This document shows positions 28,971-29,726 of a DNA stretch of 64,000 bases, piece after piece. The notes under the pieces are model-generated. The model had not been told where the DNA came from and did not search any database. It saw nothing but the letters and a program-made list of their open reading frames with translations. Made by a program: the position numbers and the translations under genes. Each line of letters starts with the position of its first letter. Positions within the stretch are counted from its first letter, which is position 1. Origin of the DNA: Candidatus Stahliibacteriota bacterium (GTDB lineage: Bacteria; Hydrothermota; Tepidihabitantia; SM23-42). The stretch is taken from assembly GCA_030602565.1 (NCBI GenBank), contig JAUVZL010000004.1, positions 1 to 64,000 of the forward strand. Direction: 5' to 3'.

Positions 28971-29012
28971 AGCACGATTCCTCGGTAGCTCAACGGTAGA
29001 GCATCCGGCTGT

Positions 29013-29306
29013 AACAAAAGCAGCTTCCACGAGAAATCGTGGTTGAAAAATCGGGTGAATTCAGGGAAGCCTAAGTTCTGATTTTTGTCATTGCGAGCGC
29101 GAGCGAAGCAATCTCATATTGGAATATGGTAATCCTGAGCCAAGCCCCGCACTTTTGATAAAAGTGCGGGGAAGGTGCAGAGACTATTCCGTAAGGAAGT
29201 ACTTTTCGCTCAGTGCGGAAGGGAAGCGCCCGATCCCGCAATACCGGTAATAATTCGGTATCGGGAATGAGATAGTCCATTCTCTGATGAAAATCAGAGG
29301 TCAATG
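29013..29306 (+). other. Group I self-splicing intron (IC3-like) in tRNA-Asn between anticodon nt 35 and 36
   Basis: P1: exon GCTGT (29008-29012) pairs with IGS GCAGC (29020-29024), giving the u.G wobble at the 5' splice site; last intron nt is G (omega-G). Core matches remembered tRNA group I introns: TTCAGGGAAGCCTAAG, AATCCTGAGCCAAGCC, GGAAGGTGCAGAGACT, GATAGTCC. P2 (29027-29042) and P9 (29282-29299) hairpins carry GAAA tetraloops. Confidence 0.95.
29086..29128 (+). repeat. Dispersed palindromic repeat-like segment in the P5 region of the intron
   Basis: TTGTCATTGCGAGCGCGAGCGAAGCAATCTC plus CATATTGGAATATG hairpin; ATTGC/GCAAT stem. Confidence 0.6.
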
Positions 29307-29447
29307 TAACCGGAGGGTTGCAGGTTCGAATCCTGCCCGAGGAGTTATTATTTCTCTTAACGAGGGTAGTGAGTTTAGAGAAATATAATCTCGAATCCCG
29401 TGATAACGGGTGAGAGATACCTTTTTGAAACTCTGTTTAAACAAATA

Positions 29448-29726
29448 ATGGCAAAGATAATCCCACAACCTTGGTTTGTCTATATTGTTGAATGCAAAGA
29501 TAAATCACTTTATGTGGGGATTACTACAGAAATTGAAAAGAGAATCAATGACCACAATTCAGGAAAAGGTTGTCACTATACTAAATACAGAAAGCCCGTT
29601 AAGCTTTTATTCTATGAAAAACATAAGAACCGCAGTTCAGCAGTCAAAAGAGAGCTGGAGATCAAAAAATTCAGCAGAGCGAAGAAGTTTGATCTAATAA
29701 AGAATGATTTCTTGAGTTGCAAATGA
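29448..29726 (+). CDS. GIY-YIG domain protein (UPF0213-like)
   Basis: WFVYIVECKDKSLYVGITTEIEKRINDHNSGKGCHYTKYRKPVKLLFYEKHKNRSSAVKRELEIKKFSRAKK; ATG at 29448 preferred to 29400. Confidence 0.9.
   Translation: MAKIIPQPWFVYIVECKDKSLYVGITTEIEKRINDHNSGKGCHYTKYRKPVKLLFYEKHKNRSSAVKRELEIKKFSRAKKFDLIKNDFLSCK

Follow-up and report, generated by a model that had tools for sequence, protein, structure and literature searches.

Bacterial group I introns are found in the genes for tRNA-Leu and tRNA-Arg. Cases in tRNA-fMet and tRNA-Ile2 genes have also been described (PMC8450103), and palindromes within bacterial RNA genes are likewise already known. A review that cites Ogata et al. 2002 reports RPEs in Rickettsia M1 RNA (the RNase P ribozyme) and tmRNA (PMC2229807). 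Double-hairpin and repetitive hairpin elements of fungal and sponge mitochondria occupy variable, non-critical parts of RNA genes and are kept in the transcript (PMC2800124). The intron described here, like the known bacterial tRNA introns, is a group I intron in the anticodon loop; it differs in that its host is tRNA-Asn(GUU), interrupted between positions 35 and 36, and in bearing apparently captured dispersed palindromes in P5 and P6. Its P5 palindrome, family A, is, like the Rickettsia RPEs, a dispersed palindrome seemingly tolerated within a functional RNA gene, and is set apart by the length described for the RPE families (105-146 bp; PMC2229807). The mitochondrial elements are also hairpin repeats within RNA genes, but they are organellar and of other sequences, whereas the present case is bacterial and lies in an intron ribozyme. 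In the literature searched, which covered few subscription papers, we found neither a bacterial group I intron with inserted palindromes nor a bacterial group I intron tip reused by unrelated palindromes; TCATTGCGAG matched unrelated sequences only.

The window, i.e. the whole 64,000-nt stretch that was analysed, lies on contig C93 of the genome of an uncultured WOR-3/Stahlbacteria bacterium (G000; 2.74 Mb, assembly 96% complete). All features given below are on its forward strand. An intron-split tRNA-Asn(GUU) gene occupies positions 28979-29344. The 5' exon (28979-29012) ends ..CCGGCTGT and runs through anticodon position 35, the intron spans 294 nt (29013-29306), and the 3' exon (29307-29344) begins TAACCGGAGGG..; the boundaries were set by comparison with intron-free and intron-bearing relatives. 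The Rfam covariance model RF00028 matched the intron at 94.2 bits (E 5.7e-23), above the gathering score of 50. By direct reading, the IGS GCAGCT (GCAGCU) pairs with the final six nucleotides of the 5' exon, GGCTGT (GGCUGU), with a U.G pair at the splice site, and the final intron base is G. Joining the exons gives CTGTTAA in the anticodon loop, which places the intron between anticodon positions 35 and 36, and the product is an intact tRNA-Asn matching those of intron-free relatives such as G002 and G010. From the model match, the U.G pair, the terminal G and the restored exon product, sequence comparison identifies the element as a group I intron.

Relatives, among them the congener G002, have intron-free tRNA-Asn genes of almost the same sequence, and a GIY-YIG gene lies downstream in both cases; the intron is therefore optional at an orthologous locus. 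In the window, the GIY-YIG domain gene is located at 29442-29726 (PF01541, E 1.3e-20), 3' of tRNA-Asn. Since it also adjoins the intron-free genes of G002 and G010, it is linked to the locus and not to the intron. The split gene is absent from the results of a tRNA scan of the window. No second, intact tRNA-Asn gene was found in G000 with a query that does find such genes in relatives, though, as the assembly is 96% complete, one could be missing from it.

The P5 arm and its extension span 29069-29130, as judged from the predicted fold of the P4-P6 domain and from P5 alignment in relatives. The basal strands are GCC (29069-29071) and GGT (29128-29130), and a distal stem, GTTCTGAT/ATTGGAAT (29075-29082 and 29118-29125), carries the palindrome at its tip. 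A sequence-only reading of this DNA had quoted TCATTGCGAGCGCGAGCGAAGCAATCTC between the P5 strands of a group I intron, and the quoted sequence is indeed present there, at 29088-29115. The reading correctly placed the insert in a peripheral part of P5; its extent is revised to 29079-29120, the segment that differs from empty orthologues. These 42 nt stand in place of the 11-nt loop CAACTAACGTC of G003, G012 and G016, and contain TCATTGCGAG..GAAGCAATCTC, the family-A palindrome, which was obtained by chance in 0 of 100 shuffles of the window. A separate CATATTGGAATATG hairpin (29115-29128), suggested to follow the palindrome, was rejected as an independent element: its pairing probability is 0.002, and half of it is GGAATATGG, the conserved 3' P5 strand of orthologues that lack CATATT.

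The repeat is not unique in its genome. A strict pattern was found in three places in G000, and pattern searches for the family as a whole (TCATTGCGA-N4..34-GCAATCTC) revealed 15 copies, compared with none for a reversed-pattern control. The flanks of the copies are unrelated to each other. The best copy, at C99:7827-7864, matches the intron over 38 bp at 92% (E 1.1e-8), including TGATTTTTG on the left. Family A is present in 21 of the 27 genomes of the order, with fixed outer arms and variable centres; of the 52 different centres tested, 24 outperform 95% of their shuffled versions in folding, so such centres are themselves predicted inverted repeats. Neither a target-site duplication nor terminal repeats of a known transposase were evident by inspection, and no clear flank remains where the loop was replaced. 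Family A occurs in multiple copies at unrelated places and has an empty orthologous site, which mark it, at the level of sequence, as a dispersed palindromic repeat (MITE/REP-like).

Comparison of orthologous introns at the same tRNA position showed that G003, G012 and G016, whose intron cores are 93.7-96.1% identical to that of G000, are without the palindrome. Their aligned arms form a plain 22-nt P5, GTTCCAACTAACGTCGGAATAT; at the aligned site, G000 has GTTC[42 nt]GGAATAT. The proposal of a dispersed palindrome nested in a peripheral P5 extension was thus borne out, the element being multicopy and absent from some orthologues. The congener G001 (core 92.2% identical) contains at the same spot a palindrome unrelated to A, family B (CCCTGAGC..TCGAAGGG): its P5 tip, GCCCTGAGCATAGTCGAAGGGTAT, is a copy of this dispersed family, which is represented seven times in the G001 genome. 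Within a single genus, three species differ in having P5 tips unrelated to one another. The tip of G005 is family-B-like. In another genus, four introns (G018, G021, G022 and G014) carry family A with differing centres; the inserts of G018 and G021 have flanks in common and are probably of one origin, inherited rather than independently acquired. The distal P5 stem has been retained through two-sided changes (TTC/GAA, CCC/GGG, TCC/GGA). Identity of the tip with dispersed copies, presence or absence between orthologues, and exact nesting are direct observations.

A tree of 13 intron cores, with P5 and P6 removed, was poorly resolved. Family A requires at least three changes on it and formed a single clade in 0% of 200 bootstrap trees; in an AU test, a single family-A origin gave p=0.075 and was not formally rejected. 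Five family-A copies were seen in the 13 introns, all in P5, versus 0.03 expected from genome density, or 0.23 if copies are eight times denser between genes. The intron-borne A and B copies are all oriented alike.

An exact core pattern retrieved 39 loci in GTDB genomes, whose titles name Nitrospirae, Deltaproteobacteria, WWE3 and Actinobacteria, among others; further introns were drawn from the phylum to which the Nitrospirae genome G043 belongs. Among 68 distinct P5 arms, five matched A and seven matched B when at most two mismatches per arm pattern were allowed; the means for shuffled arms were 0.001 and 0.037, respectively. Tips of family B are seen again in Nitrospirota and further phyla, and the family is dispersed in the genomes of G043 (9 copies), G048 (21), G044 (12) and G050 (216). 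A dispersed family B was rejected for G045 and G047, where genomic copies are too few, and the B label of G041 (L051) is doubtful, its matches being hardly above control. Outside Stahlbacteria, family-B tips are short and partly degenerate; they may be separate captures, or may go back to a single ancient capture that was passed along with the intron.

The intron family (L051-L089, L209-L235) is spread over many phyla, mostly in tRNA-Asn. At three proteobacterial loci (L057, L064 and L079), the intron follows ..GGACTCAT, and the host gene is probably tRNA-Ile2(CAU). The P5 arm of L214 (G461, from the phylum of G043) is about 97 nt long and consists of AACTGATAACT/AGTTGTCAG-like units in direct and inverted orientation; as a dispersed repeat this arm was rejected, because it matched only itself in its genome at up to three mismatches. 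Sister introns L010 (G021), L012 (G005), L048/L080 (G014) and L016 (G013) contain a short HNH endonuclease ORF in the P1 loop. That of G021 matched PHROG 2255 (E 7e-31), with Pfam HNH below cut-off; the ORF is a remnant in G013 and is absent from the window's intron.

The P6 hairpin, CCCCGCACTTTTGATAAAAGTGCGGGG (29145-29171), is also dispersed (family C), with a 27/27 identical copy at C83:74017-74043. Its inner pattern occurs in 11 places in G000 and nine in G016, where a family-C hairpin also forms P6; G003 has a different P6. Taken with the P5 evidence, this means that two tips of the G000 intron bear dispersed hairpins. The nesting is therefore wider than had been noted: P5 tips hold A, B or other sequences, and P6 holds another dispersed hairpin. 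Palindromes were also found within each other. One family-A repeat of G025 has a family-C hairpin in its middle. G002 has eight family-B copies, seven of which are centrally placed within family-A copies, an arrangement that is at least partly due to amplification of one composite. Tentatively, the dispersed palindromes of bacteria may land in, or be copied into, hairpin tips by preference, and would accordingly nest at each other's centres and enter P5 and P6 by the same rule; we regard this as possible but doubtful.

The minimum-energy fold of the P4-P6 domain contains P4, P5 and the palindrome stem, which extends P5 distally. For the pairs checked in P5 and in the palindrome, the predicted probabilities are 0.93-0.999. 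G003 served as the natural empty control, since deletion of the 42 nt leaves no loop and misfolds. P4 and P5 were retained in the predicted fold with the insert, as in G003 without it, in line with the original suggestion that an extension at this site would spare the core. Taken by itself, the repeat segment shows no unusual stability: 22% of its shuffles fold equally well. Rfam scores with an insert (94.2 bits in G000 and 87.5-89.8 in two others) come close to those without (98.8 and 103.3 in relatives), and the intron is a strong match in either state. The G000 ribozyme probably still splices, given that no tRNA-Asn other than the split gene was seen and that P4 and P5 stay paired in the prediction.

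We consider it very probable that a copy of a dispersed palindrome took over the P5 apical loop of the tRNA-Asn intron and was tolerated there as a longer arm, and that the tip has repeatedly been taken by unrelated palindromes. A short copy would have inserted into, or replaced, the loop, arriving by insertion or by template copying into the hairpin tip, and would persist only if the RNA can accommodate an extended arm. Being self-complementary and placed at a hairpin tip, the palindrome would lengthen the P5 arm of the RNA in a direction away from the catalytic core, so that splicing, and hence the tRNA, would be tolerated. The flanking P5 stem would be kept through compensating changes, and the tip would act as a recurrent refuge, occupied on more than one occasion and by no fewer than two unrelated families (A and B). 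The direction of change, arrival by insertion or template copying as opposed to gradual growth, and retained splicing are what we infer from the comparisons above.

Gradual growth, in which an ordinary P5 arm slowly lengthens, is inherited with the intron and resembles the repeats by chance, would agree with the P5 tips, which vary in both sequence and length throughout these introns. We find it highly improbable: the tip matches a repeat of its own genome over 38 bp (E 1.1e-8), a match to A is almost never seen among shuffled P5 arms, and the tips of three congeneric species are unrelated to one another. Alternatively, the palindromic arm may have been recruited from repeats as a selected, functional part of the ribozyme (a fold stabiliser or a protein binder) and not merely tolerated. 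The common orientation of A and B copies in introns, most of which, among those tested, fold somewhat better as RNA than the other strand, speaks for such selection, as does the established fact that P5 extensions help the folding of other group I introns. Nevertheless, close orthologues without the arm score equally well or better in Rfam, centres differ freely among introns and shared ancestry can partly explain the orientation, which makes selection of the arm quite unlikely.

A further suggestion, compatible with capture of a dispersed palindrome by the P5 tip, is that the palindromes are REP-like and were moved by Y1 (RAYT) transposases; since these act on single-stranded hairpins, insertion at hairpin tips would be explained. 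Family A shares with REP/REPIN-RAYT systems its short, dispersed, imperfect palindromes and a genome with many Y1 transposase genes, but differs in that consistent RAYT linkage was not found; its consensus is also unlike classical REPs. Matches to Y1_Tnp are abundant, with 13 in G000 (RAYT-like, e.g. L134 and L144-L154) and some in 26 of the 27 genomes of the order, and one RAYT locus of G025 (L159, C22:1797-5135) is bracketed by three family-A copies. The other 39 of 40 Y1 loci fetched are without a family-A copy (in G000, none was seen versus 0.21 expected), and G012 has family A and no Y1_Tnp match. With linkage at one of 40 fetched loci, RAYT as a demonstrated mobiliser finds no support beyond that locus, and we judge its involvement rather unlikely. 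The parasite-in-parasite arrangement envisaged from the sequence stands as regards nesting; current mobility or parasitism was not supported by the comparison, in which neither a target-site duplication nor a dedicated transposase link was found.

How short palindromic repeats that carry no genes spread in bacteria is an unsettled question. Here, empty, family-A and family-B versions in near relatives provide before and after sites in a molecule that can be assayed for activity in vitro and whose removal the host cell presumably needs. If the preference for tips is true, the intron would be a natural assay of tip-directed insertion on single-stranded or cruciform DNA. A ribozyme loop would appear to be both a recurrent safe harbour for such repeats and a source of new RNA structure.
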